Assembly: GCA_963681505.1 (NCBI GenBank) | Contig: OY811977.1 | Location: forward strand, 6,030,970 to 6,094,969 | DNA length: 64,000 nucleotides | DNA from: Eunapius fragilis | Lineage: Eukaryota; Porifera; Demospongiae; Spongillida; Spongillidae | Direction: 5' to 3' | Shown: positions 24,034-59,666 of the stretch, piece by piece | How positions within the stretch are numbered: the stretch's first letter is position 1 | Layout: each line of letters opens with the position of its first letter | The notes under the pieces: model-generated | Told to the model about the DNA's origin: nothing | Database searches by the model: none | What the model saw: the letters and a program-made list of their open reading frames with translations, nothing else | Translations under genes and position numbers: made by a program

Positions 24034-24541
24034 TGCTCTGGTTTCAGAATCCGCTACGAGCTCCTCAATGCATTGTTCACGGGGTCAAGTAGCTAGGTTG
24101 GGTGGAATGATCAACGTCATTATACCATTGAATGTATCACTTATTTATATGCAATGCAATTTTCAGTATGCTTTAATACTGAAAACGTCACATACTCACT
24201 CACTCAATTTGAAAAATGTTGATTATAACAGCACATGACATAATCCTCCAATAGACTCGCTGTCTATCAAATTCCCAACCAACACTACAGCCTCCAAACA
24301 CACCTCCCTTCCCTCCCTTCGGAATTCTTTGGTCCTCTAGCATGCATTTACCTGTTAAATTGTAAAGAGCATTTATATCAAGTAGTATAAGAAATAACAT
24401 GTAACCATTGTCAAACTAACCAACCTACTCTACACTGTGAAGGCTGCATTTGTATTAATTGCAGGTGATCACGGATTAAGATTCGGATGAGAAGATTCGA
24501 TATCAGAGATCAATTCTTTTTATCTACATGACACATTTATA

Positions 24542-24703
24542 ATGGTTATACATACATCACAGACACACTTTGATGTGATATCTTATCCTTTCTCGAGAAG
24601 AGGAAAGGCGTTCAATAACACCTGTAACTTAATATGTATCGACCACAAAGAAACCCTAAGCATTAAAGGAATAGACTTTCTTCAATTAAAAACGTGGCCT
24701 TAA
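24542..24703 (+). CDS. Family A exon, copy 1 (small beta-rich protein, 3' exon)
   Basis: Open stretch reading MVIHTSQTHFDVIS, FSRRGKAFNNTCN, then LQLKTWP and stop. The same stretch stays open in all five units while the antisense strand does not, which favours plus-strand coding. It aligns loosely with the last exon of family B/C (pattern SF-hydrophobic-TH-F/Y-V ... G ... C-N ... I-F). The true 5' splice site is uncertain; ACATCACAG just before ACACAC is one candidate. Upstream exons were not found. Confidence 0.4.
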   Translation: MVIHTSQTHFDVISYPFSRRGKAFNNTCNLICIDHKETLSIKGIDFLQLKTWP

Positions 24704-24707
24704 TAAT

Positions 24708-25626
24708 TATCAGGAACTACGATAGTAGTTCCTATATAGGAATTGACCCGGGTCGTGAATATCATTAAAAAAACGCGACCCGCGTATAACTCGCGTACCA
24801 AGAAACGGATAGTTTAGCTCTTTGTTCCTATCGAACCAGAAGGCAAAGACGGCCATTTTAATGTTTTGTTCCAGTCTTCAAACAGTTTGCTTTAAGAGAA
24901 CAAAAAAGTTCGTGTTTTACCTCGTCCCCAGGCCAAATCTTCTCCGTCGTCGTCGTCGTCTTCTAATTCTCGGGTGAGTATAACTCCTGATAGGAATGGT
25001 TTTAAAGAGCGCCAATAATACCAATCACTTTAGAATCTCCTGGAAGGCCATCTTCAAGTATCAGATGTAGCATTAAACTGACATACGTAATCATTACGTA
25101 ATGCGTAGTGTTAAATAGAAGCGTTCCCATGGCGACATTTACGTATATTGCAAACAAATGAGGAGAGCAGACGACGTGTTTGAATTCTCCCGCGTTCCTT
25201 ACAGTGATCCCAAACAAAAGCGGGCGTCTGCTCGTGACGGTAATTGAAGCGGAGGGGGGGGGTGGGGGGGGGGGGGGGGGGGGGGGGCACTTGTCAGTAT
25301 CAATAATCGATAAAAAATGATAATTAAAAATAGAGGAAACAAGTAAAGAAAAACATTCTCTAACGAGAAAGTTGGTGGGATATAGGAATTGGAGGCAATG
25401 GTGGTGTAAAAAGGAGGGGAACAAGGTTTTGAGAAAAGGGTAAATGAGATAAAAATCCTATATTTAGCACATGTACATGCAACAACCAAACGTAGTGCTA
25501 AATATAGGATTATTATCTCATTTACCCTTTTCTCAAAACCTTGTTCCCCTCCTTTTTACACCACCATTGCCTCCAATTCCTATGTCCCACCAACTTTCTC
25601 GTTAGAGAATGTTTTTCTTTACTTGT
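24708..25626. mobile_element. Insertion in tandem unit 1
   Basis: Absent from units 2 and 3, where AATAATTAT runs directly into ATAATGAAATTTC. It begins with a small hairpin (GGAACTACGATAGTAGTTCC), contains a G-rich run at 25253-25287 and ends in a large palindrome. No transposase ORF, so the mechanism is unknown. Confidence 0.7.
25339..25626. repeat. Near-perfect 132-base inverted repeat (palindrome)
   Basis: Arms 25339-25470 and 25495-25626 are reverse complements with about two mismatches by eye, around a 24-base loop. The right arm ends exactly where the tandem unit resumes. The arm contains GTTGGTGGGATATAGGAAT, which resembles GTTGGTGGTATATAGGAAT in the unit itself near 26009-26027. Confidence 0.92.
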
Positions 25627-26638
25627 ATAATGAAATTTCACCACCCAGCACTTAAACTACAGCTGCCAGCACACACCAAGAGCTTCTGAGAACGTCCGCA
25701 AGTTACTGCACACAGTAACTCATTTGCATCCCATCACTCATTAAAGTGCCTAACAGTGTGTGGTCACTGTTGGATCGGAACGACCACTCGAGACTATACT
25801 GTTAAGCCATCATCTCTATCGCAGGGTGGGACACGATTTCGTTCTTTACTCATGGTACGAAAACCAATATAGTCGTGTTGCAAGACAAGCACAAACTCCT
25901 GCGCGTGTGCTAAATACATAAATACGTACACATATAACAACATATACATCATGTCACCGACTAATTTAAGACAAATTAAGGTGTTTTTATAATTACATCA
26001 ACGTCAAAGTTGGTGGTATATAGGAATGAAAAGCTATTGTGCATGGTCTACTACGCATGGAAACAATGCGTTCATCCAAACGAACACTCTACATGTTGTT
26101 GAACTGAGTCATTCGGAGGACGCGGTCGCCAACGTTGCGGGACGTCAACTTTCCAACCACAGAAGAATGTCCAGCCCCACACTCAGTGTGGGCGTTCGAA
26201 TATACGCTGTAACCATTTGTTATAAAAATTACATTCCTACTTATGACTCTACTACGTATTACTACTGGCTACCAGTTATAAATTAAGCACTAACAAGTGC
26301 ATAAGGTACATGCATAGCCAATTTCAATGAATTTTACAATTGTGTCTGGCTAGTTTGGACGGTAATACATGTAGTTGTAGTCCGCATGCATTAACCTCAC
26401 GTTGGCAGATAGCCCCGTTTCTGCGATGAACTGGCCGTTTTTGCAGTATGCAGTGTTTATAAGTGTAGTATAGGCTATTATATTTTAATTTGAGCCCTTG
26501 ATCTTCCCTTACATAATTATATTCACGATATTATTAATCTGAACACAAATGTTAATATATCAAATTTCTTCACAGCTAATTATAATATAGCGTTAAATGC
26601 CATTGTGTACAACTTCTACATGTTCAATGTTTTCATGG

Positions 26639-27160
26639 TTACTGCATAATACTATCGAAATTGACGGAGACAGTGTTGCCTGCAATGCGATAGTGCATAT
26701 CCATTTTTACACCATTGGCCGAGAGTGGATCGGAGCTGAGAGTAACCGTCCCGTCCATAGCTATCTTGAACTTGGCAAGAAATCGTGACCCTCCAAGAAA
26801 CTTCACCACAAAACTTCCCTCCACTTGTTGACCTGATAGCTGTTCAGAAGTATTTAATAGAAACTATATTGCGCAAGCATGCATGCATTGCTTACCGTGC
26901 CAGAGGTCTGACCACCACTGCTGGCTACAGGAGAACCGAGGTTACTGATCCATTGTCCGTTAACAACATTCTGATCAGTGATGTTGGCCTGCGTGATGCT
27001 GTTATTGGTGTAGGTAATGTTGACAGCTATTTAGATAGAAACAAAAGTTAGCACCAACGTGATGAAGCAGGAAGGCAAGCATAAGCCATACTGTAGGTAG
27101 CCATTTTTTTACAACTTTGCAGTCTTTAGACAAGAGGTTTAATAGCAGTCGGTTTTGATG
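26639..27160 (-). CDS. Family B gene, copy 1 (small putative secreted protein)
   Basis: Two exons are well supported on the minus strand. Exon 2 (27026-26896, 131 bases) reads AVNITYTNNSITQANIT to ASSGGQTSGT, with acceptor AAATAG and donor GTAAGC. Exon 3 (26839-26639) reads LSGQQVEGSFVVKFLGG to TVSVNFDSIMQ and stop. A branch-like TGCTAAC precedes exon 2. A first exon with a short hydrophobic start (MLAFLLHHV) near 27070-27100 is likely but its donor is not settled. The protein is about 110 residues plus leader, with alternating hydrophobic pattern, two NIT/NNS-type glycosylation sites and no Cys in exon 3. I recognise no family. A TATA box at 27190-27183 and a conserved upstream block support transcription. 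Near-identical copies lie in units 2 and 3 and at 58.4 kb. Confidence 0.7.
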
Positions 27161-27182
27161 GCTCTGTACATATCGGATGACT

Positions 27183-27290
27183 CTTATATAGATAAACTAA
27201 GCCATTAAAGCACCAATAAGATTTCACTTGATTGAATCATGACGTGTCAAAATTCACTGGAACTAAACCCAATAGGTCCACGTGATAATC
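27183..27290 (-). promoter_or_regulatory. Promoter of B1: E-box, ATTGG, TATA
   Basis: On the minus strand: CACGTGGACCTATTGGGTTT, then about 75 bases, then TATATAAG at 27190-27183. The same order is kept in the other B copies and in relics at 40.7 and 42.2 kb, so it is selected or recently shared. Confidence 0.6.
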
Positions 27291-28140
27291 ACAGAAGTCA
27301 TGCAAATCATAAGTATACGGCGCTGAAACGTTGCCAAAATCATATCTTCGATAGTCGTATACACAACGCCACTGGTGTAATCACCATTGTATTATTATAC
27401 CAAGGAAAGGTGCACGTTCGTTCTTGGACATCATACTCCACGGGTAAACGTGCATGTAGGGCGAGCATGGGCAAAAGCCAGATTTGGCAGGCCAGTAAAG
27501 CGCGGTGCTTGGGCAACGTTATGGCGTTTTGTTCAATTTTAATAATATATGGCTTGAACAGGTCTCAGAACTAACATACTTGATTCTAGAAATAGATATG
27601 CGCATAGCATAGATAGCTTATGTAAATGCTCTGGCCTCAGAATCCGCTACGAGCTCCTCAATGCATTGTTCACGGGGTCAAGTAGCTAGGTTGGGTGGAA
27701 TGATCAACGTCATTATACCATTGAATGTATCACTTATTTATATGCAATGCAATTTTCAGTATGCTTTAATACTGAAAACGTCACATACTCACTCCGATAT
27801 TTTCAATTTGAAAAATGTTGATTATAACAGCACATGACATAATCCTCCAATAGACTCGCTGTCTATTAAATCCCCAACCAACACTTCAGCCTCCAAACAC
27901 ACCTCCCTTCCCTCCCTTCGGAATTCTTTGGTCCTCTAGCATGCATTTACCTGTTAAATTGTAAAGAGCATTTATATCAAGTAGTATAAGAAATAACATG
28001 TAACCATTGTCAAACTAACCAACCTACTCTACACTGTGAAGGCTGCATTTGTATTAATTGCAGGTGATCACGGATTACAATTCGGATGAGAAGATTCGAT
28101 ATCAGAGATCAATTCTTCTTATCTAAGTAACACATTTATA

Positions 28141-29316: not shown

Positions 29317-29840
29317 TTACTGCATAATACTATCGAAATTGACGGAGACAGTGTTGCCTGCAATGCGATATTGCATATCCATTTTTACACCATTGGCCGA
29401 GAGTGGATCGGAGCTGAGAGTAACCGTCCCGTCCATAGCTATCTTGAACTTGGCAAGAAATCGTGACCCTCCAAGAAACTTCACCACAAAACTTCCCTCC
29501 ACTTGTTGACCTGATAGCTGTTCAGAAGTATTTAATAGAAACTATATTGCGCAAGCATGCATGCATTGCTTACCGTGCTAGAGGTCTGACCACCACTGCT
29601 GGCTACAGGAGAACCGAGGTTACTGATCCATTGTCCGTTAACAACATTCTGATCAGTGATGTTGGCCTGCGTGATGCTGTTATTGGTGTAGGTAATGTTG
29701 ACAGCTATTTAGATAGAAACAAAAGTTAGCACCAACGTGATGAAGCAGGAAGGCAAGCATAAGCCATACTGTAGGTAGCCATTTTTTACAACTTTGCAGT
29801 CTTTAGACAAGAGGTTTAATAGCAGTCGGTTTTGATGGCT
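29317..29840 (-). CDS. Family B gene, copy 2
   Basis: Exon 2 is 29704-29574 and exon 3 is 29517-29317, with splice signals as in copy 1. The product is nearly identical to copy 1 (one visible change in exon 3: MDMQYRIAG for MDMHYRIAG). TATA box at 29871-29864. Confidence 0.7.
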
Positions 29841-31977: not shown

Positions 31978-32500
31978 TTACTGCATAATACTATCGAAAT
32001 TGACGGAGACAGTGTTGCCTGCAATGCGATAGTGCATATCCATTTTTACACCATTGGCCGAGAGTGGATCGGAGCTGAGAGTAACCGTCCCGTCCATAGC
32101 TATCTTGAACTTGGCAAGAAATCGTGACCCTCCAAGAAACTTCACCACAAAACTTCCCTCCACTTGTTGACCTGATAGCTGTTCAGAAGTATTTAATAGA
32201 AACTATATTGCGCAAGCATGCATGCATTGCTTACCGTGCCAGAGGTCTGACCACCACTGCTGGCTACAGGAGAACCGAATTTACTGATCCATTGTCCGTT
32301 AACAACATTCTGATCAGCGATGTTGGCCTGCGTGATGCTGTTATTGGTGTAGGTAATGTTGACAGCTATTTAGATAGAAACAAAAGTTAGCACCAACGTG
32401 ATGAAGCAGGAAGGCAAGCATAAGCCATACTGTAGGTAGCCATTTTTTACAACTTTGCAGTCTTTAGACAAGAGGTTTAATAGCAGTCGGTTTTGATGGC
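31978..32500 (-). CDS. Family B gene, copy 3
   Basis: Exon 2 is 32365-32235 and exon 3 is 32178-31978. Same product as copy 1 apart from isolated changes. TATA box at 32528-32521. The conserved upstream block is slightly altered (CACTGAAGTC beyond it). Confidence 0.7.
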
Positions 32501-33927: not shown

Positions 33928-34416
33928 CAGCGGCGGATCCAGGGGGGGGGCACTCGGGGCACGTGCCCCCCCCCCCCCCCCCCCCCCCTTCATTAATAAA
34001 TTCATAACTTTTCGGGCCGCATTTTATAATATAGCTGCACGATTGCGCTGTCTATTGATATCCGCACGCATGAACTCTACTACTGTACTATATCCCGGGC
34101 CCCCCGATACGCGATCATACTTCCCCCCCCCCCGCCCTTCGTATCGGGCCAGAAACCAACAGCACCCCCCCGCTCTTCGTTTTGGGCCAGAATCCGACAG
34201 CACCCCCCCCCCCCCCCCCCCGCTCCTCGTATCGGGCCATAAACCGACAGCACCCCCCCCCCCCCCCCCCCCCGCTCCTCGTATCGGGCCATAAACCGAC
34301 AGCACCCCCCCCCCCCCCCCCCCCGCTTTTCGTATCGGGCCAGAAGCCGACCCCACCCCCAGCCACACCCACCATCCGTGCCCCCCCCCCCCCCCCAAAA
34401 CCTGTATCCGCCGCTG
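33928..34416. mobile_element. 489-base non-autonomous DNA element with CAGCGGCGGAT termini
   Basis: The left end CAGCGGCGGATCCAGG is matched by the right end CCTGTATCCGCCGCTG as an inverted repeat (15 of 16). CATTT at 33923-33927 and 34417-34421 is a 5-base target duplication. Unit 5 (near 57524) keeps the empty site with one CATTT. It holds no transposase. The interior is C-rich runs and a minisatellite. Confidence 0.85.
34125..34395. repeat. About 60-base minisatellite with poly(C) runs
   Basis: Four to five copies of CTCGTATCGGGCCATAAACC followed by GACAGCA and a C run of variable length, inside the small element. The long Pro or Gly frames here are not genes. Confidence 0.9.
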
Positions 34417-35290: not shown

Positions 35291-37055
35291 ATGAGGAATG
35301 ACCATGGTATGATAGGGGTAACCAATGTCGTTTCCTAAAAGAAATACAAATTCTGCTCTTATTGAATTTCTATAGTTACAGCCAATGTAATGACTGCACG
35401 GTGGTGCATGATGACTTCATGCCGATAAGCCTATTGCGGAAACTGCGTGCCAGATTGTAACGAAGTTGTTGAAGGGCATCTGCAGAGATGGAGGCAATGC
35501 CACAAAGGTAGCAGAGGTTCAGAGATGGGGTGAAAGCACAAGGATGGAGTTGAAAACACACCAGATATAACGCTCAGGACCGTTAAACATAACACTACAG
35601 TCCAGTACATACAACACATCAGTCCAGTACATACAACACAAGAATCCATGCAGTCTATATAAGACCAGTATATGTAATCATCAGCCCAGTACATACAACA
35701 CACAATTCCATTGCATGAGCAACACAGAAGCCCATGGCCAGTACATATTTGAATGTGGAGGACTCACATTATGAGCTGTTCATGTCAGAACCAATGGAGT
35801 AGGTTCCACATAGTGATGATGCGGTATGATGATGTCATTTTAAAAGTCACCCAACGATCGGGGGACTTATATCTATTCGTGCCAATCGACCGATTTAAAA
35901 AAGGAGAACAGATTGCGTTTTTCAGTATTGTTAAACTGCGGTACCCAGTGCCAGTACTCCATGTTCGTCGTCTTCATCTTAGCATAAGTCACAACAGGAA
36001 CCTAAAAACGCCAGTGTACTAATCGCTTCAGGATATCTCCGCGTGCTAAATTCAGGGCAGGGCTGCAGAAGGCCAGCCTTGTGAGATTTACGAATAAGTA
36101 AATGTATAACAATTGTCCGTAATTTTCGAAGGAATAAATATAACTGGTAATAAATTATCGCAGCTTGAATTTCACTGCGGCTTGCCTTCCAAGGCACAGG
36201 CTGGACACTTGCCAGACCTCCGTGGTCGCAGACTGGACCCTGCATGCATGCATGGCCGGACTTTCGGCAACTCTGTTCAGGGGTCTGTTACTTAGACACC
36301 TAACTGTTCGCGAAATTAATCAACTAAAGCTAGTATAGTTCCTTATTTGTTATTCTCTTACATCAGCTATTCTCTATTAACCTATTCCAGTGAGAGATGT
36401 ATGTCTGCGTTAATAATGAGTTTTCCGTTACCAAAGAATTTTTCAAGACTCTTTGAATCATTATACCCATTTGAATTTACTCATGTTCACTGACTGCTTT
36501 AGATTGTATTATTGAAACCCCGTTCCTGCCACATATCATTCCTCTGCTGCTTCTTTTTGCCTCATTTTATTATTCTACTTTGTTACTACGTTCCCGTTTA
36601 GATAGTCAGTGTAGGAATTTTACTCTCTTAGTACATATAATTAAACTACTTCCAAACAAATGCATAACAGATTACACACCTTTTGTACGGGTCCTGCGGC
36701 ATTTGATTTGGGCTACAAATATAACCGACAGAGCTAGGTACTTCATTCTTTATATACATGTGTATGGTTTGGAATCTGAGGCATGTTCGAATATACTTGC
36801 ATGCATAGCAAGGTTTCTGCGGTTGTCGGTTGTCAAGGGTGGTTTATTAGGGTTTACGAGGCATGACTTTTGTCCACATTTTCCGTGACCGCATCGGGCA
36901 GTGAGTCATGCCACTTCCGCATTGCGATAATATATAATGATACGTGGTTTATTCATCTGTGTCACTACAATATTTTCAAAATGTCCTGCAATTACTGTTC
37001 GTTTGTTTGACGCGGCTGTGTGATGTTTTATCTAAATTATCTTACGGTCTTATAG
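35291..37055. other. Gene-free stretch
   Basis: No gene supported. At 35595-35705, a short repeat of CAGTCCAGTACATACAACAC occurs three times. The upstream exon or promoter of the member at 37056 should lie near the end of this stretch. Confidence 0.4.
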
Positions 37056-39251
37056 GTGTCAATATAAACTACACCAATAATAGCCTCATTCAAGCGAACG
37101 TTTCAGAACAGATTGCAGAACAAGGGGAATGGACATCAAAACTTTCTGACGCCGTATCAAATGGTGGCGGTCACACCTCTGGGCAGGTAAGCACGTTTGA
37201 TTAAAAATAATAATAATAAAAAGAAAATCACTGTTTATATGCAAAAATGGGAATTAGGGTAGGAGACAAAATATACATTTTCCCGGCGCTAACCGTTTTC
37301 TTACTGCAAGCCACAACGTGCCTACATGAACGGCATTTGCTGGCTGTTTATACCAGACTTATTTGTGAACGGGCTATCCTGCATGGTTTAGGGGTGTTTA
37401 GTTCGTTTATTTGCATAATTATATAGCTTATCTATCGCTCGTACTAGCTGTATGTCATTGACCAAATTGAGTGCATTGCTTCGTAACCATTCAATTGATT
37501 GCTGCTTATCAATAATCTCGTTTTTTTAAAGGACTGTTTTCGTTGTTTCAATGTGTATCAACGAGGCCCGACCTGAGAGGAATTGAATACAGTAAAAGCA
37601 TTGTCATGGGAAATGTATATTAGCTCTACCGGGTGCCATGCCAACGGATTTCTAGACATTCTATTAGTTGAACAGACAAAATGAACCATGGCGAATGAGA
37701 TTTTTGTTGGGGGGGGGGGGGGGGGGGGGGGGGGTGAAACCAATAACTACTCGAAGCGCACAGACAAAAAGAAAACGCATACCGCCTCCGATTAATACTG
37801 CTATTTCTTGTAACCACGCAAGTTAACCCAAACAATAATAAGATAGTAGATAGATGAAGCATTTTTTTTTAACCCTCGTTCGTTGATACAGGTATATGTG
37901 CACTGGTCCGGCAAGTGGATATAAATATATCAAAGAATATTCACAATACATGTGTGGTATAAGTAATCCTCCATCACATGGCTGTCATTGCTGAAAATAT
38001 GGCCTAGAATGGATCTTCCAGTTGGTAGAACATCTGTTCATTGATGTCGTTTTATCCATGCCGTAATCTTCGTGAGTAGCATTAAACAGCATGCATCATC
38101 CCCCACAGATAAAGCCCGCCTCACAGCAAAAACTTATTGATGCAGGTCACTAGAAATTGAGAATAGGAATAGAAATCGAGTGCCCTATTCTCAATTTCAA
38201 GTGACATGCATGCCTTCTCTCAACATCAGCTTCTCCCGCTTCCGCTGTCAATTACCTCACCTAGCTCGGTAGAAACTAATATGCATTTTGATCCGATTGA
38301 ATTACGCATGGCAATCATTTGGTAGCTGGGCGTGAATTCTTCTTGGGGCTCTTGCTGTCCACTCTGCCTTGATATATTGATATGGATCCTCTTGGCCACC
38401 ATGCAATATCTTGTAGGCGACATTGTAATTCGTCATAATCAGCTTCAAGACACCATTGTAGACCTCTGTCACAGTGCACATTTAAGGGTGGGGATAGAAG
38501 CTGGCATTGGTCTTACTCCTGACCTTTCTTTGTTTCGCGCTGTCGATATCTTGGTCAAGATGGTTTCCAGCTGCTTTTGACTTGACAGTGACATCAAGTG
38601 TCACTTCCTGTACGTGCCCTAGTGGCTGAGCAAAGAAAGCACATTGCCATAATCACAAATGCCACACGCTCTGGGTTAGACTTGTTTGTTGAGTGCTATG
38701 CATGGTAATTGTGGTTCTCAGACAAGCCTTTGCATGCTTAGCCTCATGTCTTTCAATCAGCCTTCCGGAGCCTAAGTCTAAAATCTTGATGGATCTATAT
38801 GGGAAGACGAACACAACCCTTGTTAGATGTGACACATGGGCACTACTAGCTATATCTGTATATGAGTGTGTACCATGACATCATAGTTTGGTTTTTACTT
38901 GCTGTTAGGTGTGGTTGTTGTTTTAAATTATTATGTATTCTCTTTTGATTGGTATTACTTGCATGTCTATGTTGCACTTATTTATCCTGCTATTGTCAAG
39001 CACAAAATAATAATATATGTTCAATCTCCTCCACCAATTCAACCTTTAAGGTGTGTGGAGCATCAGGGGTAAAGGGAAGTTTCAAGTTGACTTTTCTAGG
39101 TGGAACTCACTATACAGTACAATTTGAAATCACTAGCGATGGTGAAATCAGGGTATCAGCTCAAGCAACGGTCTCAAGTTGTACAAATGTTCTACTCAAA
39201 CTTGTGACCGATATCGAAGGCCTCACTTTCTCAATCACATTGTTCACTTAA
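37056..39251 (+). CDS. Family member C (diverged B-type gene)
   Basis: Exon 37056-37186 (131 bases, same length and phase as B exon 2) reads GVNINYTNNSLIQANVS to NGGGHTSGQ, with acceptor TTATAG and donor GTAAGC. A matching last exon at about 39050-39251 reads GASGVKGSFKLTFLGGTHY to GLTFSITLFT and stop, aligned to B exon 3. The intron of about 1.86 kb is inferred from homology. AATAAA follows near 39342. The leader exon is unidentified; the frame just upstream contains VLQLLFVCLTRL, a possible hydrophobic leader. Function unknown. Two Cys (VCGAS, SSCTN) are present in the last exon, unlike B. Confidence 0.6.
37187..39049. other. Probable intron of member C
   Basis: Contains a G run of about 26 at 37709-37734 and a 62-base hairpin at 38145-38206. 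Short ORFs here have no motif. Confidence 0.5.
38145..38206. repeat. Short hairpin
   Basis: TCACTAGAAATTGAGAATAGG pairs with CCTATTCTCAATTTCAAGTGA around a loop of about 19 bases. Confidence 0.8.
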
Positions 39252-40724
39252 AATTTTTTTTTTTTCAAGTGGAGTTTATTATGTACGTGTGCATGGCTTA
39301 AGTATGTACCGCTCGTTCAATGAAAGTCTGTACTGATAGGATAATAAACGTGAAGTTTAAAATCGTAAGCGTTCGGACTGATTCAAGGGCGCAACCTTCT
39401 GGTGCGCATGTATAGAGGATCATGCAAGAGCCACAAATATCGTACAGTATCAGAAATGTGACCTAAAATTCGTGAATATTGTGGTCGAGGCATTGAAAAT
39501 ATTCCAGCAAGGATTCTCTCAGTTGACGCGTGCATTGAAATTAAAAAAAAATCAGGCTACTGTTACTTTGTGATGGGCAGACTAATTTCTAGTGCGTAAC
39601 GAAAAAGAAGTTCTAGAGGAGATATCTGTATCCTTGAATATGGAATGATTTTAAAAACTTGAAATACATGTAAAATACTCTAGGTCCCTTCACGCTGCCT
39701 TGGTCTCGTATAGCTTTCTATGCCAAACAGGGCCTTGTGGATTTACTTACATATCATATGCGATGTATCTACTACCACCTTCAAACATCCTGCTATGTCT
39801 TCGACTTAAGTCTACTCATCAACATTAAGCTTGATCAACTTGTATATATCCCAATGCAACATTTCTAACTTTTCTCACATTATAATACATTACCCGGGGT
39901 TTGATTCTTATCCAATAGTTTGCAAGCTTTGAATGTTGATTGCCATCAAGTTATTAAATCCGGATCGCTGTGACGTATTCATTTCCCTCTGTTTTTGTCT
40001 GCCATTGCATTTTGTGTTATGACAGAAGGATTGAAGTGATCTACCAATCCTGAACCTTGCAAAGGGTTGTCTCTAATTCACGTGTAAACTTTTCGACATG
40101 CAGAGAAATCATCAGGATGTGATAAAAGAAAACATGTAATGGCTCCATCCTTACCACAAGCAAGCACCATGTTGCTATCATTATCACGAACATGCTTTTT
40201 TAAAATCAGATGTACGATCGTTGTTAGGTTATAGCGGTCCAAACGGAGAGCATTTTAGTATAACTTTTTATTATACAGGTATACAGCGATGCGAAACTTT
40301 CGCGTGAACTGTTCCATGTAATAGTATAGATGGAAGGTGGAAAATATCCAACATCAAGCATGGTACTTCCTCGTATTGCTAGAGCACTCCGTGGATGGTC
40401 AAGCCGCAGTTCCCACAAATTCATTTCAATTAAGGAGCAGTTATGTGTGGTAAGCGATCTGACGAAACGATGGATTTTTGAACATGAAGTTGATGTGATG
40501 GATTTCTATACACTTGTAAACCCTCATTCAAGGACTTCTAATTCCTGTGATTATTATAACTTACATTTAAAGAGAACATTCTGCCACAGCAGAATGGTTT
40601 GCAAAATAACAAGCTGTTTCAAAGGTACAGTTCAATTTGATTGGTTAAGGTCAATTGAGGGAGTTGATGGAGCCCGCGGCAGGGCAGTTGAATTCCTGTG
40701 ATATTTATGATTGGATGGCTTCTG
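39252..40724. other. Gene-free stretch, 3' part duplicated at 41.9 kb
   Basis: The stretch 40455-40720 recurs at about 41885-42135. The open frame 40330-40701 is broken in the second copy, so coding is doubtful. Confidence 0.5.
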
Positions 40725-40734
40725 TGATTATCAC

Positions 40735-41012
40735 ATGGACCTATTGGGTTTAGTTCCAGTGAATTTTGCCATATTATGCTTCAATCAAATGCAATATTAT
40801 TCATGCTTTTGCTTTGTTTATCTGTATAAAAGTGATCCGGTATCTACAGCTATACCAATCGTCTGCTATTAAAGCTCTTGCCAAAAAGTAATTTATAATG
40901 CTAACTATATGCCCTATTCATCATGTTGATGCTAATTTAAATTCTATGTATTAGCTGTGAGCATTACTTACAACAACAGTAGTTCCTACATAGACAACAA
41001 CATGAAATAATT
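40735..41012 (+). pseudogene. Family B relic E with promoter
   Basis: Has the shared block CACATGGACCTATTGGGTTT, a TATA box TATAAAAG at 40825-40832, a TGCTAAT branch-like site, acceptor TATTAG and an exon 2 start at 40954 reading AVSITYNNSS, which then ends in a stop. Only the 5' part of a B-type gene remains. Confidence 0.6.
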
Positions 41013-41344
41013 GACCTCACCTGGACTCGAACCCCATAAATGTGTCACACGGACACTCCACGATGTTCGCGTTTGTCCAACTATACATGTTCCATGTACC
41101 GCATGTTCGTCCATTCCTGTTGGATCATCGGCTCCCTCGTGACCGTGATCGTGCGCGTGCGGTTACTCCTCGCACTATACACTACACAGACAAGCAGAAG
41201 GAAATGAAATAACGAAGCAAAGAAATTAAGAATAAATTATTTTGATTGGAATTATGAGGTGGCAAAATTCACTGGAATTAAACCCGTGAGCATAGAAACC
41301 ATGCAATCATAAGTATCACAGCAATTCAGCTGCACTTCCGCGAG

Positions 41345-42070
41345 CAACTGAAATGCAACAATGGCTTGCAAAAGCAACCCTGTTGTTTTTGCAAGCCATT
41401 CCGCTGTCAGAATGTTCTTTTATGATGGAAGTTGCTTTAATCACATTATAATTAGAGCACGTAGTCAATATTTGGTTGTGTTCAGTGGTAAGCTGCTGTT
41501 ATATCTGAAAGCAGTAATACATTTTCTATGAACATTGAATTACACAATGACAGAAAACCGCATAATCTTTTGACAGCCAATTTCTCGAAGTGGTTGCCAT
41601 CATGTTATTTGGTGGATATGAAATTCTTGAACGAGGGTGTAGAAGTGTAGCTATAAAATGTACTTGATCAGGATGTGCAACATGTACTTGATCAGGATTT
41701 TAAGACTCCATGGCAATCACGATCATCATGCAGGACTTCAGTCAAATTATTTGATAGAATCAACCCCCAGTGATGTTGTATCATGTGAGACATGCTGGAA
41801 ATGCTATGGATAAAGGCAAGTCGAGCAAGCTTAATGTTAATGAATAGACTGAGAAAAATAGCCAAAAGGTGGCAGACATCCGAAATCAAGTTTGACGAAA
41901 CGATGAAAATTTAGGACCGGAAGTTCATGTGATAGCTACACTTCTAAACCCTCATTCAAAAACTTCAAATTCCTGCGATTATAGTACATGTAACTTCCAT
42001 CATAAGAGAACATTCTGCCAGCGGAATAGTTTGCAAAATAACAAGCTGTTTCAAAGGTAGAGTTCAATTT
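41345..42070. repeat. Inverted-repeat cluster
   Basis: The stretches 41395-41450 and 41570-41660 reappear as reverse complements at 41925-42060, for example GAGGGTGTAGAAGTGTAGCT against AGCTACACTTCTAAACCCTC. At 41362-41403 a small hairpin pairs GGCTTGCAAAA with TTTTTGCAAGCC. A reversed relic of the family promoter block lies near 41255-41285. Confidence 0.65.
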
Positions 42071-42164
42071 TATTGGTTATGGTCAATTGAGGGAGTTGAG
42101 GGAGCCCGCGGCAGGGCAGTTGAATCCCTGTGATATTTATGATTGCATGGCTTCTGTGTTCATC

Positions 42165-42438
42165 ACATGGACCTATTGGGTTTAGTTCCAGTGAATTTTG
42201 CCACGTCAAGATTCAATCAAATGCAATTTTATTCATGCTTAAATTGCTTAATTTATCTAATACTAGAGTGATCCGGTATCGACCGCGATCACAGACGTCT
42301 GCTACAGTGTGTCATAGTTCTTTCCAACAATGGTTAACCATTGTACGCATTGCTATTCATCACGCTGATGCTAATTTTCTTTTTATAGCAGTCAACATTA
42401 CTACCTACACAACAAGTAGTTCCAAATTGCATTTGTAA
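42165..42438 (+). pseudogene. Family B relic F with promoter
   Basis: Repeats the layout of relic E: block CACATGGACCTATTGGGTTT, then WLTIVRIAIHHADANF in a leader-like position, acceptor TTATAG at 42388, and exon 2 start AVNITTYTTSSS followed by an early stop. Tandem with relic E at about 1.43 kb spacing. Confidence 0.6.
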
Positions 42439-42722
42439 AGGTTCGTTTACTTATGAGAACCGGAAGTAGTCTGCATGATCTTCAATAAATATGAATCCAG
42501 CATCGTCTCTAGTACAGTACTCGTCAAAAATCTTCAGGGTTAAAAAAATTATGGCTACCTACGGTACGACATATCAGTGCATGCATTAGTGCATGTTGGA
42601 TAACTGTATATGTATGTGTTTGGATGGGTAAGGTGTGCGTGTGTGTGGTGTGTGCTTGCGTGAGTGTTCGTGCATTTCCGCGTCTAAATTGTAACTGTTC
42701 ACATATGTATCTTTGTGTATAG

Positions 42723-45700
42723 TTGTCAAAATTGCTTACACCAACAACGTCATCCGTGAAGCCCAAATCAATGAAACTAAAGGAAATTGGCAGATTCATC
42801 TTACTTCGCCAGTAGAAGGCAGCGGAGGTAGTACTTATGGACAGGTATGCATATACCTACATCCCTTACCATGTCATCCCTTGAAGGATTGAATATGTTT
42901 CGTAGATTCAGTATTTCTGATAATCTTTTAGTTATTCAAGAATGCGTTATACTAACTCAGTGACAGCCAAGTGCACGTATATACGTACGCACGCATAATC
43001 GAAGTCCATTATGTGTCCCTTGGTTATTCACTTGTGCACAAAAAAGCTTTAGGGGCATTGGTATGTTGGTATTTAATTGAAAGGAATGCGGGGACAACAG
43101 CTGTAGGTGAAAGCGCAAAGGCGTCTTTATAGCCTGGGAGAGCGAAGCCTTATTAAGAAACTGGACGTTGGGACTAACATCCAGGGATAAAACTGTTGCA
43201 TTTTCATCGTCGATGTACGGCTACACCACTTCGCTCCGCCTATATCTGCCATGGCGTCGTTGACAACCGTCCTTTTTCAAGGTAGAAAACGAAATACATC
43301 AAAACAAACGTCATATAATTGCTCTTATATCACATTTAAAGGGAGGCTCCACTGATTTTTTTCAACATTTTTATTTGCTTAAAATAATCTACCTTATGTT
43401 AGCAGCTCATCGTAAAAAAATCAAGTCTTAAGCGCGTTCCGTACTGCAGATAAAATTGTTTTTAAAAACGTAAAACAAACGCGTCATGACGCGTATTTTC
43501 AACGTCATTGACTCCCATTATTAATTATAGTTATGGCTGTGAGACCGTATATATGTTTGAACCGACGCGAGTAGTAGGCCTAGGTTTGGAGGAAGCAGAT
43601 AGCAGTAGCAGTAGCGATGTAGAAGACAGCGGGCTACCAACGGCTTTAAACCGCCTAGTAAATACATCGTGGTGTTTGTGTAGCCACTACGGATCAGTGC
43701 ACATGTTGTAAAGAGGATCCAAACGCCGCACAGCTTGCTGAAGGGTTGACATGCCTAATGGACCACCATGAATTTGACATCGTATGTCTCAATCCAGCTG
43801 TTCTTCGTGTCGCATTGGCTGGAATTGCAGCAACTAGGGGAGATCCGATCAGGCTACCCTTAAGCAAGGAAGTGTGCGCTACACACACGAGCATTGCTTG
43901 GAAGTGGTAGAGACACGCTAAGCGTTTCAAGCCACTACATGTACACGCCATTATTTGATAAGAGATAGAACGCTTTAAACATACGAATACACTTACACAA
44001 TCCAGCAAGCGTGTTTTGGTTAAGGGGAAACGGTGGAAAGAAACCCCAAGGTCGTGTTTTCGAATAGTGTTGGAACAACCAGCAACGACGCCGAATAATC
44101 CCATGACGAGTTCGTTATAACTAGAATGCAGTTTTTAGTGACGTACGAGTCACATGACAGGGGCGGATGCTAATCACTTATTCCACAGCGAATAACTCAG
44201 TAACGAAGCGTCAAAAAAAAAAAAAAAAAAAAAAAAACGCCATGCTAAGCGTAAGATTATCTTTCATATAAAGGGCACTTATTTTTCCAGGTCAGTATCC
44301 TTTTAAGTTTAATACTAACCGCGAGATTCCGCTTCATGAATGAGCACAACTATGAAACAGGTAGCCACATGTTTAAAGAAAAGAGGAGATGCTACATAAA
44401 TAGTAGCCAAAGACGCAGCTTGCGCACGCCGAATCGATGCAAAAATCAATAAAAGGTGATTGGTTCCATCCGGAAGTCGCGTGAGCTCGACAACCATACT
44501 ATGGCGGATTTTTGTGAGCATTTCTGCTACTTTGATTCTAGCACAACCTTCTTAGCTATGTTGTTTTCACGGCGGGAAGATTTAGTACTTTTTAAAAATA
44601 CCTGATCGTACACTATGCGTGATCGATCGCTCGCTTTAATGTTAGTGATTTTGTACTGGTAAGCCTACTTTGTAGTAACAGTTATCAATACCGAGTTAAG
44701 CTGTGTATGTATTGGTCTATAAAGCGTCTTTTGGTCACTGTTACCAGCGCTGTGAGTTCTTACTCACGTGACCTACATACACGTAACTTAATGAAGCCAT
44801 AGCTGATCATGCAGCATAATTCGCTCGTTATCACAAACCACATCTCCATTCGATAGTAGCGTTCCGCTTGAGGGAAAACCGGCCTAGCTGGCTGCTTTAA
44901 ACCTACTCTGATAGGTGCATGTCCTTTTTTTCTTGAGAGTGTAACGCGACCCCGATCCCAACTGGCCGCTCTTGATGGCAAATTTGAAAATATTGCCCGC
45001 ACTGATAAAATACATGTCATTATATACTATCCAAACTACCAGTAGCTAATTTTGATTTTATCATTTTATCACCTGTTAGTAGTTTTCCATAAGTTCCGCC
45101 ATCAGACTGTTGCTATAAGAGCCCCGCATGCGTGCGGCGGTTGCGTCGTTACAAGAGCAAATTAAAGGGCTCGTTTAGGTGAGATCTGAAACGATCCCGC
45201 GACGATCAGGTTGCCATTACAAAAATTCGGGCTGTGTATGTGTATGGCGTACGAATGCAAGATGAAAGCTATTAGCACGCAAAGGTTGTATAGCATTCAA
45301 GATATGTGAAAAACTCGTGTTCGCTGTTATTGCCAAACTCCACGCCTAAAGTGCCACCATGTTTAATTTACAACTAATTTCGCCGGATGGTTCCCAAGCT
45401 TCTTGTATACGCTAATCTGATTCCTTTCAAAACATTGCAGGCAAATAATCAATTAACTATGTCATCTGTTCCATTGTCCAAAGAGTTATTCAATTGTAGT
45501 TGTAATTTGGTGTATTAATTTGCTGATGTGATGCGGCGATGTATTCCTTACTCATGGTGGACACAAAGTTTATTAACGAACACCGGCGAATGTGCATTCG
45601 CTTCTTTTACAGGAATGAAGATATCGAAACCTACGCGAGTAGGTTCCACATAGGAATCCTGCAGTATCATGAAGTCATTAAAAAACGCGTAAATATATAA

Positions 45701-48700
45701 AATTTGTTGAGCACAACAAAATCTATGACGCAATTAACACAACGATTCTACTTTGAACCAGCGCTTGCAATCATGCATACAATGGCAATATTGTAGCGGG
45801 AAATTCTATTGTCTTGGTGTTTGTATTGTACGAAGTTGTGCTTTTTTTAAGTAGCTACTTTATGATCGAGATTAACAAGCCATGTTAGGCACTGCGGAAA
45901 TTTATTAATGCTCAAAGGATTATAGTATTATTATCATTAGAAAGAGCGAAAAAAGCTGCGTTTAAAAGTACTTCTTGCGTCACCCTAGCATATTAAATAC
46001 CAGAGATATTTAGCCTCAAAGTGACAACTTTCTGAGTACAGAAGTCAGTGCGTAATGGCAATAAAAACGTTGACGGTTGAAGAATATCAAGGCATAACCT
46101 TGCCATTCAGTAAGATAATAATTCCAAACATTGCACATAAGTGTTCTGATATAGACTAGTCTTATAAAAGGTTCATTACTAAAAGATGCATTATTTTCAT
46201 CACTTGTGTCTTTTCAAATTGTTAACAAAAAACTGACAAGCATGCACACAATCAAGCACAATATCATTTAGCATAAAAGGATATAATTTCCATCGGCCAC
46301 AAACACTAAATCACCAGTTAAATAGTCCACGAGCATTTCAATAACTGTAATTGTATTATCAATTCCTTATTCTTCAGATTCATCCATTGTCCAATATGTA
46401 ATTGTTAGTTTGGGTAACTTTGCTTTATGACTTATCTTTACAACATGCCCATTGTATAGTACATTGGTGAAATTAACATACCACCCGACATATGAACCTA
46501 GCAGAGAAGCTAAGGCATAGGATTTTCCTTGAATTGTGTGTCTTTCTATTCCAAGATGTTTTACCAGTAGAGTGAAGGCGCAGAGGTCATCTACAAAAAT
46601 AAGAACTGGTTAGTGTGTGTAAACACAAATACGCAACTATGCTGATGGCCCATAAAGGCAAATAGTGGTCCATACACATGTGAGCAAACACATATCAAAC
46701 AACATGCAAAATTGTAAATTGTGTACCTTTGTGAACATCTCTAATTACCTTCAAAGTATTGCTGTACTTTCCTTTCAAAGATTCAGAGAATTTAAGGACA
46801 GCTGGAACAATTTTCCTCCACTTCTTCATAGCCTACTTAATCAAGTCTTTATTGTCTGTTATCAGGTCCAGCTCAGACTCAAGCTGCAAAATAGAAGAAA
46901 TTTGACCACACATTATGTATAGAATCCAGACACCTTTGAACCAATGTCTAATAAATAGTCTTATTTTTCATTGCTTTTACCTTTCCATCCATAAAGCCTA
47001 TCTTGGCATTGGGTGCTCTCCTGAGTTGATGATCAGCCAAACCAAGTGTTTTCTCTGCAAACATAATGTGCACTGGAGCAGATTTTTATTGATAACAATT
47101 TGGATGTGGACAGTCTAGCAAGAATAATCATCCATCTTTTTCTTAATTACATCAATTACACCTTGTATTAGTAATGCAAATATCTAATTGAATGTTTCAT
47201 GCTCCACACTGCTAAAGGATGACTCCTGTAAATGTTTTAACACACTTTCATCATCAAATAAAGTACCAAAAGCGTCTGTCTTGAAAGTGAGAGCTATAGA
47301 AGGATTAGTTCTTAACATATAATATGTATAAAGGCCCTCACCTGGCTGACTACTGCAGTACCAGCTATGGCTGTTGAATGGTTGACGTCTACGTTGTTGA
47401 TCGTATCCTAATTAGTGCCTGCTGAAATTCTTATTCATTTTTGGGTGGTGAACGAGTTCTGCAAGCGCTTTGGTTTTGCTTCCTCTTTGACATATTGATT
47501 TCATTGGCGATGGCAATGCGGCAACTTTCGCTAATAGAGCCGTCACATCGCGCATCCGGATTGGTCTCTTGGCTCTTGTTCCACTCGAGCTTGGTTCATC
47601 AAGGGAAGGGTCCATTTGGGATGCCACGCTGCATTGGTTCTGAATAGAACCCGTGGCGTTTGAAGCGGATAACTCGTCGTACATGGCTATCTGTAGCACA
47701 CACACCCACACTGACGTCACGTATATCTTATACATTTACTGAAGAATCCTCTAACATTGAATATAATTCCTTAAATTTTTCACTTTTCTGCTTTTGTAGC
47801 GATATTTATTATGGTTAGAAATTGTCCTATAAATGAATTTACAAATACATGGCTACTTTAGGGACCTCAGAGTAGTATGACATGATTTTCATCTCTTAAG
47901 TCGAATTGATTCGGCCATAATGATGCTAAGCAGCACTCATATCAAACACTTATAAAAACGAACCTAACTTCAAAACGAATTGGACTTAAGAGTTCAAACA
48001 TTCCATACGTAAATACATGTACAACGAATATGAGCTCTTAAGTCGAACTATTTGTTGAGTTGTAAGCCAAGAACCTTAGCCTGAAGATACCTTATTGTTT
48101 TGACCCTGAAAATTCAGTCTCAAATTGGAATTCTGACATTTTTCGTGATCCAAACTCAAAAGTTAAAAGATGTAAACATGAGGTTTTTTTTAAATCCTGG
48201 TGTACAGTACCATTGGATGTGTTGGTCCAATGATGCTCAGTAACTGGCGCATCATAGAACGTACCCAGCGCTTCGTCCAATCTTTATGAAATCTCGTAGA
48301 AAGATAGAAGGATGAATTATCTAGAGGGGATCATAATTACCTTGGAGGGGATGCAGCGTTTTAGAGTCGATAATCGTGGGCAGAAAACTGTATTCGATTT
48401 TAACAACACTTTCAAGGCTGTATGATTGGGAGAGATTCCATGCTTTGCCAGGCCTCTGATTTTGTATGGCATCAAGAGGTCAACAATAATTGCGTCACAT
48501 AACAAGATGATTCTATATAACCAAAACATTTATCCCCAAACAATGTATTAATACTTCCTGGGATGACAAGGCAAGAGGTCAATACTGATAATATCGATCT
48601 ACATTTACATGTATTCATCAAAGCTAACAGGCGAGCAAGTGGCTGCAGATTTCATCATATCATTCCAAAATGAGGCAGAGTTTAAAGTTTTCGTTGAAGT

Positions 48701-48827
48701 GAATGCTGAAGGGAATGTATCAGCGAATTGTACTCCATCTTCTCAGCGGATCAAAATGTCACTCAATTGGAGTATAGCGGACAATACAGTTTCCGTTAAT
48801 TTAGATACCAGCCCTTTTGAAATATAA
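42723..48827 (+). CDS. Family member D (exons split by insertions)
   Basis: Exon 42723-42844 reads VVKIAYTNNVIREAQINE to EGSGGSTYGQ, with acceptor GTATAG and donor GTATGC; it is B exon 2 with 9 bases fewer. Exon 48624-48827 reads LTGEQVAADFIISF to NTVSVNLDTSPFEI and stop, with acceptor ATCAAAG; it is B exon 3. They are the only complementary exons in the region. The 5.8 kb between them includes a Kolobok-like element and a broken unknown gene, so the intron may have grown by insertion. Pairing them into one gene is inference. Function unknown. Confidence 0.5.
43508..43891 (+). pseudogene. P2X7 C-terminal-tail-like domain fragment
   Basis: Starts MTPIINYSYGCE, then YMFEPTRV, an acidic Ser-rich linker and NTSWCLCSHYG, followed in a shifted frame by DQCTCCKEDPNAAQL and DHHEFDIVCLNPAVLRVALA with RGDP. 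This is the order of the Cys-rich, zinc-binding intracellular ballast domain of P2X7 receptors. The domain also occurs in many stand-alone, multi-copy genes of cnidarians and other animals. A likely donor follows SKE at 43891. The single frame change between the Cys pairs suggests decay. Confidence 0.65.
43997..44104 (-). CDS. THAP zinc-finger first exon
   Basis: Reads MGLFGVVAGCSNTIR, LGVSFHRFPLTKTRLLD and ends at donor GTAAGTG. It has the start of a THAP domain: first Cys of the C2CH site, then the SFHRFP signature. The rest of the domain would be on later exons, which are not seen. THAP domains bind DNA and head Kolobok and P-type transposases. Confidence 0.7.
44310..46366. other. Gene-free stretch
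   Basis: No gene supported. At 45628-45690, GAGTAGGTTCCACATAGGAA with a following ATGAAGTCATTAAAAAACGC recalls the start of the insertion at 24710 and a stretch at 35797. Confidence 0.4.
46367..47735 (-). pseudogene. Multi-exon gene of unknown family, broken
   Basis: Minus-strand exons in order: 47735-47412 (MYDELSASNATGS, a Ser-rich region, then RPIRMRDVTALLAKV); about 47300-47200 (LTFKTDAFGTLFDDESVLKH); about 47090-46985 (MFAEKTLGLADHQLRRAP to GFMDGK); about 46885-46749 (LESELDLITDNKD, a stop, then MKKWRKIVPAVLKF); and 46590-46367 (DLCAFTLLVKHLGIERHT to TITYWTMDESEE and stop). Splice-like ends flank most of them. I do not recognise the family; it could be an accessory gene of a transposon. 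The in-frame stop in the fourth exon suggests decay. Confidence 0.45.
47736..48623. other. Probable intron of member D
   Basis: Nothing recognised. The words CTTAAGTCGAA and TTCGAACTTAAG-like sequence recur at 47896, 47986 and 48037. Confidence 0.35.
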
Positions 48828-50491: not shown

Positions 50492-50609
50492 CTTATTAGT
50501 CGCCGTTCTCGAAGAAAGACACAGTTAGTTTACTTAAAGATATTACTATGATATAAAAGCGTTTTATGATGTTTATTTTGATATATTTCGTGTACTAACT
50601 TAAAAAACA

Positions 50610-56254: not shown

Positions 56255-56793
56255 TATGTTTTGCCATGCCTGTAAATGCATGCAGTTACTTTGATCGATT
56301 TGGAAATGTGAAGCTATACACTATACAATAATGGAAAGTGGGTACTGTGCAGCAGAACTGTAGTATTAATCTTTATTACACCTAATCACGTGGCTTTTAT
56401 CCAGTGCGCACTGAAGAACGTTGACTTCAATGCTGTAATACGGTATAAAATTATATTTATACGCGGCACATTTGAATGTTAATCATTATTGATTCAAGAT
56501 GTATTGCAACATGTCAGACTAATGATATCATCCTGCTACATGTTGTAATAATACATGTTACAGGAAGTGACATTTACCAGCTGCAGACTGTAAAAACATC
56601 CTGCATCAGATTGTGGCTTGCCATCATGCCTGGTTTGTACTGATCGTCATGCTTGATACTGACTGATAGAATCATCATTGCTTGGTACAGGTTGTATAAA
56701 TTTGGCTGTGTAAATGTGCACTTGGCGGTCAAAGAGTTAAAAGAGACAATGAATTATTTAACACAAAAAGGTTGGCCCCTACATACTGACACT

Positions 56794-57063
56794 CTATATG
56801 CATACCATCCATAACGCACCATTTCTGAAGAAATAAAAAAAAGTGGTGTACGGGTTGTTGAACCATAAAGGCTTTGAATGGTGTAAATTGTCAACTGTTT
56901 CATTTTCATTTTTCGGATCATATATTGCAGCATAGCAGCCATCGACATCGACGTCTCCAAATGTGCAAGTGCACCCTGGTTTCAGCCAAACCTTTAAAGT
57001 ACGGCAGCCTACAGTACACGCATAGAGAATAATCGGGATACGCCTATGCTGTTCTTCGCCCAC
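56794..57063 (-). CDS. ORF entering the right inverted repeat
   Basis: 89-residue open frame from MGEEQHRRIPIILYACTVG to NGALWMVCI. The first 20 or so codons lie within the inverted repeat; the left arm keeps VGEEQHRRIPIIL and then stops. The rest (CTCTFGDVDVDGCYAAIYD) looks protein-like but is unrecognised. Confidence 0.35.
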   Translation of the reverse strand: MGEEQHRRIPIILYACTVGCRTLKVWLKPGCTCTFGDVDVDGCYAAIYDPKNENETVDNLHHSKPLWFNNPYTTFFYFFRNGALWMVCI

Positions 57064-57248
57064 ACTATATGTAATTCTTGCGTTGAATTAGAATACAAAT
57101 CACATCCCATAATGATCGATCGATGATCAAAAGCTGTCGATTGTCAAAAGCTGTCGATCGATGTGTGATTGATCGATCGCCATCGATCATGATCAATCAG
57201 CCATCGATACTCAATGCATCGATAGTCAATTCTATTTATCCCCATAAC

Positions 57249-57410
57249 ACATTTATACATACATCACAGGCACACTTTGATGTGATCCCTGGTCCTTTCT
57301 CGAGAAGTGGAAAGGCGTTCAATAATACCTGTAACATAATACGTATCGACCACAAAGAAACCCTGAACATTTTTCGAATAGACTTTCATCAATTAAGAAC
57401 ATTGGCTTAA
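57249..57410 (+). CDS. Family A exon, copy 5
   Basis: Reads FIHTSQAHFDVIPG, FSRSGKAFNNTCNIIRID, then FHQLRTLA and stop. Open despite divergence from copies 1-3. Where the exon begins is unknown. Confidence 0.4.
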   Translation, partial: TFIHTSQAHFDVIPGPFSRSGKAFNNTCNIIRIDHKETLNIFRIDFHQLRTLA

Positions 57411-58393
57411 TAATTATATAATGAAATTTCACCACCCAGCACTTAAACTACAGCTGCCAGCACACACCCAGAGCATCTGAGAACGTCCGGAAGTTACTGC
57501 ACACAGTAACTCCCTTGTTACTCATTTTGCACCCCATCACAAGAATGTGCCTATAACAGTGTTTGGTCACTGATGGATCGGAACGACCACTCGAGACTAT
57601 CCAGTTAAGCCATCATCATTACCGCAGGGTGGGACACGATAACGTTCTTTACTTTTCTTGATTTCATGGTACCAAAACCAATATGCACTGAGACAAAAGA
57701 GCATTTATAATAATTACCTCTATGGCAAAGTTGGTGGAATGTAGCAATGAAACGCTATTGTGGTCTAAAAATTAAAGGAAACAATGCATTCATCCAAACG
57801 AACACTCTACATGTTGTTGAACTGAGTCATCTGGAGGACGCGGACGCTATCGTTGCGGGACGCGAGCTTTCCAACCACAGAAGAATGTCAAGCCCAACAC
57901 TCGATGTGCGTGTTCATAAAACTAATTTTTGAAGTTAAAATCTGCATTTGCAACAGTGTTCCCAGATGCTACAGGCTGTAGCCATTTGTTATAAAATCTA
58001 CATTCCTGCTTATATGACTATACGGGTTACTACCGACTACCAGTTATACATTAAGCACTAACAAGTGCATAAGGTACATGCATAGCAAATTTCAATGAAT
58101 TTTACAATTGTGTCTGGCTAGTTTGGACGGTAATACATGTAGTTGTAGTCCGCATGCATTAACCGCTAGTTGGCAGATAGCCCCGTTTCTGTGATGTACT
58201 GGCCGTTTACAGTATGCAGTGTTTATTGGTATAGTATAGGCTATTATATTATAATTTGAGCCCTTGAACACCCTTACTTGCACCCACGATATTATTAATC
58301 TGAACGCAAATGTTAATATATCAAATTTCTTCTCAGCTAATATAGCGTTAAATGCCATTGTGTACAACTTCAACATGTTCAATGTCTTCATGG

Positions 58394-58920
58394 TTACTCC
58401 ATAATACTATCAAAATTGACGGAGACAGTGTTGCCTGCAATGCGACAGTGCATATTCATTTTGACACCATTGGCCGAGGGTGGATCGGAGCTGAGAGTAA
58501 CCGTCCCGTCCATAGCTATCTTGAACTTTGCAAGAAATCGTGACCCTCCAAGAAACTTCACCACAAAACTTCCCTCCACTTGTTGACTTGATAGCTGTTC
58601 AGAATTTTTTAATACTGAGAAACTCTATTGCATAAGCATGCATGCATTGCTTACCGTGCCAGAGGTCTGACCACTACTGCTGGCTACAGGAGAACCAAGG
58701 ATATTGATCCATTGTCCGTTAACAGCATTCTGATCTGTGATGTTGGCCTGCGTGATCCTGTTATTGGTGTAGGCAATGTTGACAGCTATTTAGATAGAAA
58801 CAAAAGTTAGCACCAACTCGATGAATCAGCAACGCAAGCATACGCCGTACTGTAGGTAGCCATTTTCCTATAACTTTGCAGTCTTTAGACAAGAGGTTTA
58901 ATAGCAGTCGGTTTTGATGG
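58394..58920 (-). CDS. Family B gene, copy 5
   Basis: Exon 2 is 58785-58655 (131 bases, AVNIAYTNNRITQANITDQ to ASSSGQTSGT) and exon 3 is 58594-58394 (MEGSFVVKFLGG to TVSVNFDSIME and stop, after a spliced LSSQQV-like start). Splice signals match copies 1-3. The leader-like MLALLIHRV precedes exon 2. TATA-like TATAAAAG at 58949-58942. Differences from copies 1-3 are mostly conservative, suggesting the protein is maintained. Confidence 0.7.
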
Positions 58921-59666
58921 CTCTGTACATTTCGGATGACTCTTTTATAGATAAACAAAGCCATTAAAGCATCAATAAAATTTCATTTGATTGAATCATG
59001 ACGTGGCAAAGTTAGCCGCACATTCCTTAGCCGCACATTTTACAAAGAATAAGTTAACATTCCACTAGCGGCGGGTGACGGATGCGTGCGTTTGATGACT
59101 GTATGAGGTTGGTCCACGGTTGTCGATATGACCATTCTAACGGCGATGCTTAGGACATGGTAGGTACGCAACGCATCAAGTCTCAGCTCTCACCAAACTC
59201 AGAGAATATAATATAAAACGCCCATGACTATACACGAATTGAATCAAAAATCAAAAATGACACAACATGCAACTCATACGCTATGCTCACAGTTTCTAGA
59301 TGCTTAAAAAATGTAGCAAACATCCTTAGTGTTGGACCAATGTATGCGACTGTTCAGAACGGGTCCAAACCAATTCATCAGTTATTCATAGCTCAGGTAA
59401 CCATATCAATTTCATGATTGGGTAACATGCATCCAGCTTACATGTATATGAAAAGTGCATGCACCACTGGTTTCCAACATTGAGGGACTGAGTTGCACCA
59501 TGCTCTGAACCACAATTCATCTTATGAAATAGTGCATTGAACTGAATTCATGCAGTGCTATAGTTGTTTTGACACAATCCTTCGTTCTGTCATGTACATA
59601 AATAGGTAGCCTGCATGTGTGCAGATCAGTTCAAACATATTGAAGCAATACATTATTCTTCACTGG

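Follow-up and report, generated by a model that had tools for sequence, protein, structure and literature searches.

In snake venom multigene families, such as the three-finger toxins and phospholipase A2, exons diverge while introns stay alike between paralogs, and the genes of three-finger toxins consist of three exons and two introns (PMC2474615). Here we describe a family of small genes, several copies of which lie in a 64,000-nucleotide stretch of contig OY811977.1 of the sponge Eunapius fragilis (hereafter the window; positions are those of the window unless a contig, C1 to C24, or a megabase position is given). The family resembles the venom families in that it is a multigene family, in that introns are more alike than exons (here in one pair) and in that its genes, as those of the three-finger toxins, have three exons and two introns. 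It differs from them in that it has no visible signal peptide, in that its proteins have only 0–4 cysteines and in that accelerated exons turned up in a single pair. Venom proteins are set beside this family for the way in which some of its members have changed, the sequences having been compared via profile libraries only; by analogy, we regard the venom families as the nearest known evolutionary pattern, and we do not claim membership. Aegerolysins and other leaderless beta-sandwich proteins are small, all-beta and leaderless, and the present family is similarly small, likely all-beta and without a leader. Our best explanation, which we judge could equally well prove right or wrong, is that the genes form a lineage-restricted tandem family, encode small binding proteins of beta-sheet type without a leader, and have diversified episodically.

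Three-exon genes in two clusters on one contig

The original prediction had proposed two-exon genes on the minus strand at 26.6, 29.3, 32.0 and 58.4 kb, sharing a 131-nt exon with a YTNN motif. Comparison of the copies confirmed these genes and their common exon, as well as a 201-nt last exon with SF-x-x-x-FLGG and NTVSV. The plan itself, however, has three exons rather than two: the first exon, missed earlier, has a coding part of 13 nt (ATGGCTACCTACA) that carries the ATG, and is followed by exon 2 of 131 nt and exon 3 of 201 nt including the stop codon. The proposed GG-T-x-G ending of the 131-nt exon is shared, except that E has SG and C has TSS. Splice models were built from GT/AG sites, the conserved ATG, phase and the alignment of copies. 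On the minus strand, they place gene B at 26639–27104 (coding part of exon 1 27104–27092, exon 2 27026–26896, exon 3 26839–26639; introns of 65 and 56 nt), gene C at 29317–29782 (exons 29782–29770, 29704–29574 and 29517–29317), gene D at 31978–32443 (exons 32443–32431, 32365–32235 and 32178–31978) and gene E at 58394–58863 (exons 58863–58851, 58785–58655 and 58594–58394; introns of 65 and 60 nt). The predicted product of each is 114 amino acids long and has the N-terminus MATYTVNITYTNN.

Intron 1 measures 65 nt in all four genes and has a TGCTAAC element ahead of the acceptor, the end TGCTAAC...AG being conserved; intron 2 is 56 or 60 nt long. About 80 nt ahead of the ATG of gene B stands a TATA-box-like TATATAA (27184–27190, minus strand), which would presumably act as such, and a like element is present in all seven genes aligned upstream, again about 80 nt before the ATG in B, C, D and E. 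The three-exon plan, the phase, the splice sites and the MATY start are conserved across copies. Exon length changes in intact genes are multiples of three and keep the frame; the introns of the 13 core genes differ in length (65/67 and 55/56/60 nt). Predicted family proteins are 112–123 amino acids long, with 0–4 cysteines.

Two diverged members lie on the plus strand, as had been proposed, with exons at 37.06/39.05 kb (gene K) and 42.72/48.62 kb (gene M). Gene K (36981–39251) was located by tblastn from B with splice sites set by eye: exon 2 spans 37056–37186 and exon 3 39051–39251, while exon 1 (36981–36996) is tentative, a guess. Gene M (42551–48827), likewise found by tblastn from B, has the coding part of exon 1 with the MATY start at 42551–42563, exon 2 at 42723–42844 (this is the gene to which the 122-nt exon 2 of the original prediction belongs), an intron 2 of 5.8 kb and exon 3 at 48624–48827. 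Identity to B is 43% for M and 40% for K. In the genome-wide search from B, E-values were 8.4e-8 for K exon 2, 4.6e-5 for M exon 3, 0.004 for M exon 2 and 0.018 for K exon 3; in a smaller search confined to the two clusters described below they were 3e-10, 2.6e-9, 2.6e-5 and 3.9e-5, respectively. Because of the genome-wide values of 0.018 and 0.004, the assignment of K exon 3 and M exon 2 rests partly on position and phase. The way in which the exon pairs of K and M are ordered, phased and oriented makes a chance origin unlikely. The predicted relics were also recovered by alignment to the upstream regions of B and E: R40 (40691–41000, plus strand, end approximate) comprises a promoter, a decayed exon 1, intron 1 and the start of exon 2, and R42 (42123–42440, plus strand, end approximate), upstream of gene M, has the same make-up. 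Inside intron 2 of gene M lies a 136-amino-acid open reading frame (ORF; 43694–44104, minus strand), the start of which we take to resemble a THAP-type zinc finger.

Whole-genome searches took in 219 Mb on 24 contigs, the window lying on contig C7. They found at least 18 places for exon 2 and at least 19 for exon 3, all of them on C7 (all place counts are lower bounds), in cluster 1 at 5.468–5.684 Mb and cluster 2 at 6.057–6.122 Mb; with exon 3 of M and both exons 2 and 3 of K as queries, the matches listed were only on C7 and within these two clusters. Fifteen copies are intact or plausible (c1a, c1b, c1c, c1d, c1g, c1h, B, C, D, E, c2b, c2c, c2d, M and K, the start of K being tentative), of which c1d is identical to c1c and c2b to B. 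Three are broken (c1e and c1f, with a changed frame in exon 2, and c2a, which has lost its ATG), and there are fragments: an exon-3 tail near 5.4737 Mb and a second K exon 3 at 6.1199 Mb. The broken copies, the fragments and relics R40 and R42 stand outside the family counts.

The 4.1 kb at 38369–42492, with K exon 3, R40 and R42 inside, are repeated in inverted orientation at C7:6116697–6120817 (99.4%), and the B–D units recur inverted at 95–99% identity; therefore, cluster 2 grew by tandem and inverted duplication. The most similar copies may represent residual haplotype duplication in the assembly. Within the duplicated unit lies an inverted repeat (25339–25626) of two 132-nt arms, 98% complementary and 24 nt apart. 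Part of the region upstream of gene B (27399–27730) is a dispersed repeat, with copies 73–80% identical on C1, C2, C3, C5 and C20. This repeat, together with the inclusion of noncoding DNA at 95–99% identity in the duplicated units, would be in keeping with a mobile-element passenger or a non-coding repeat with fortuitously open frames. Exon matches, however, were found on C7 only, and exon conservation, frame-keeping insertions and deletions and splice phase all argue against such an origin, which was already disfavoured and which we consider very improbable. A match to a known transposon ORF, which had been named as evidence that would speak against a family of this kind, was not found: no Pfam match passed a cut-off, and exon copies were found on one contig only.

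Constraint and diversification

Signs of selection had been expected, and they appear both in the frame-keeping exon length changes and in the conservation of exons relative to the surrounding DNA. Between B and E, 16 of 345 exon sites differ as compared with 171 of 892 aligned noncoding sites (p=3.7e-12), and the direction is the same between c1b and E (34/345 vs 272/895), although part of the noncoding difference in both comparisons may reflect misaligned insertions. A ratio of nonsynonymous to synonymous rates (dN/dS) below 1, also expected, holds for B and E (0.63) but not for many pairs within cluster 1 or for four of the five E-to-cluster-1 pairs, in which it exceeds 1. In the 15 comparisons involving M or K, dN/dS is 0.27–0.48 with dS, the synonymous divergence, at 1.2–2.1 and thus near saturation. 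The sequence establishes how the genes are built, which copies were found and how they cluster, and that some of them are under coding constraint relative to one another.

Between c1c and c1h, 30 of 345 exon sites differ as compared with 28 of 1282 noncoding sites (p=1.7e-7), and 23 of the 24 differing codons are replacements; the seven changes that separate C, D, c2c and c2d from B are all replacements as well. We fitted codon models to 11 of the 15 members, leaving out M and K as well as c1d and c2b, each identical to another copy; the models were coded in Python, and their M0 and fixed-rate likelihoods match those of IQ-TREE to 0.003. Overall dN/dS was 1.68 (p=0.030 against 1), and model M2a was favoured over M1a (likelihood ratio statistic 22.5, p=1.3e-5); the posterior was at least 0.99 at residues 67 and 97. 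The M2a signal was present with exon 2 alone (p=0.002) and with exon 3 alone (p=0.003), and in cluster 1 alone dN/dS rose to 2.09 (p=0.011; M2a p=5e-5). Taken from sequence comparison, this is moderate evidence in support of episodic diversifying selection after duplication, strongest at positions 67 and 97.

Several results weigh against this reading. Exons were faster in one of the seven pairs tested (c1c–c1h only); exon and noncoding sites showed no difference in B–C, B–c2c, B–c2d and C–c2c and the opposite pattern in B–E and c1b–E, and among the near-identical C, c2c and c2d the exons are no faster than the flanks. Overall dN/dS was not significantly above 1 with exon 2 alone (p=0.06) or exon 3 alone (p=0.14). 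Twelve columns, those of residues 67 and 97 included, require multi-nucleotide steps, and with these columns removed M2a fell to p=0.033 and overall dN/dS to 1.39 (p=0.21 against 1); the selection signal could be inflated through gene conversion or through mutations of several nucleotides at once. When seven close pairs were pooled, the excess was modest (70 replacement to 11 synonymous changes vs an expected 76% replacements, p=0.014), and singly three of the seven reached p<0.05 and four did not, with B–E and B–c1b on the other side.

Relaxed constraint combined with multi-nucleotide mutation or gene conversion is thus a live alternative. It would make this an ordinary functional tandem family in which constraint on cluster 1 was relaxed rather than replaced by positive selection, the high replacement share stemming from multi-nucleotide mutations and uneven gene conversion. 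The weakening of the signal without the multi-nucleotide columns, the lack of a significant replacement excess in B–E, B–c1b, c1b–c1g and c1b–c1c, and the existence of broken copies c1e, c1f and c2a are all in line with it. Yet relaxation alone would not give exons four times more different than their flanks, as in c1c–c1h, and the six cluster-1 copies of the family set have stayed open despite many changes (the broken copies being outside that set). We therefore treat it as a serious possibility, though not as the outcome that we expect.

The predicted protein and its relatives

A hydrophobic start and N-glycosylation sites had earlier been read as hints of secretion. The hydrophobic stretch, probably the source of that 'hydrophobic start', spans exon 1 and intron 1 in a frame other than that of the spliced protein. 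Its best 9-residue mean hydropathy is 2.78, as compared with 0.61–1.39 for the 15 spliced proteins over their first 35 residues; in none of these proteins did a hydropathy scan (no trained predictor) detect an N-terminal hydrophobic, leader-like segment. Since the stretch is out of frame, the hint from N-glycosylation falls with it.

When exon 3 alone was modelled, it gave a five-strand meander (predicted local distance difference test score, pLDDT, 88; predicted template modelling score, pTM, 0.69), a predicted fold in which we have good confidence, and the family protein is probably rich in beta strands. Counting against this picture, a model including exon 2 was poor (pLDDT 53) and contained 20 intron-coded residues. 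Comparison of the exon 3 model with solved structures gave no clear match, the fold matches in PDB lying within the tool's stated noise.

Searches of Pfam, NCBIfam, PHROGs and PDB sequences with the family proteins gave no significant match, in agreement with the view that the family is uncharacterised, and scanning prokaryote genomes and viral contigs for its motifs gave no significant match either. It could nevertheless belong, as a distant member no longer recognisable by sequence similarity, to a known leaderless beta-sandwich or barrel family of the aegerolysin, actinoporin, fungal lectin or avidin type. The likeness to avidin lies in a G-x-W-x-N-x-L-G-S-like stretch in some members, which resembles the avidin motif, and in weak PDB matches (E 0.55–0.56). 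In the studied family, however, this stretch comes after a 26-residue segment, and the T-x-W-x-L-T stretch of three of the genome's avidins is not present. Furthermore, for nine members Pfam lists 11 families at E≤10, and no family of these types is one of them, neither avidin (PF01382) nor aegerolysin (PF06355), with the proviso that HMMER filters may drop weak ones, and hhalign to three of the genome's own avidins returned a probability of 0.1 over 7 columns. A profile match to avidin was not obtained, and with the fold matches in PDB within noise we consider descent from any of these known families unlikely.

A PF01382 scan of the genome, which reads exon by exon, gave seven places over the curated cut-off, none of them in the studied family: C11:3412223–3412549, C1:3145925–3146266 and 3154565–3154906, and C12:5361178–5361522, 5372343–5372684, 5485948–5486289 and 5491914–5492246. 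The corresponding search for PF06355 was empty, and its control likewise matched nowhere.

Neighbouring features and possible role

Elsewhere in the window, a 966-amino-acid ORF (1569–4469, plus strand) looks like a transposon ORF; its C-terminal part resembles an OTU protease (PF02338, E 1.2e-4, slightly short of the cut-off). A fragment of DUF6589 (PF20231, E 6.6e-14) lies at 22951–23310 (plus strand), a protein phosphatase 2C fragment, probably one exon of a gene (PF00481, E 2.2e-8), at 5544–5951 (minus strand), and a C-rich minisatellite with units of 38–51 nt at 34127–34360. In the wider genome, contig C24 (28,504 bases), apparently the mitochondrial genome, has a COX1 that reads under code 4 and whose product resembles that of a demosponge. 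COX1 fragments with stops on nuclear contigs (C9:9625139–9626160, C9:9674219–9675257, C11:5693715–5694134 and others) are probably nuclear copies of mitochondrial DNA.

If the family is indeed one of diversifying binding proteins, repeated duplication and loss would maintain its arrays, tandem and inverted, on a single chromosome, and each gene would yield a small protein of 112–123 amino acids with no visible signal peptide, likely a compact cytosolic or leaderless binding protein. The binding role is one that we infer. Positions 67 and 97 may form the binding surface, and the variable positions would tune the binding of each copy to different or changing partners. Such a partner would presumably be fast-changing itself, for example a toxin, a ligand from microbes or symbionts, or a counterpart in allorecognition. 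A bolder version, which we put forward tentatively and think somewhat unlikely, is a hypervariable leaderless recognition or effector family, an unclassified protein family in which a fixed beta scaffold is kept while exposed positions (67, 97 and their neighbours) change once a gene has been duplicated, with microbes, symbionts or non-self tissue as the source of selection.

The profile libraries searched yielded no entry for the protein family. If selection was only relaxed, an ordinary lineage-specific tandem family remains. Sponges are among the earliest-branching animals and, to our knowledge, lack adaptive immunity; therefore, a compact cluster with a possible signature of diversifying selection is a testable candidate for a part in recognition, defence or symbiosis.

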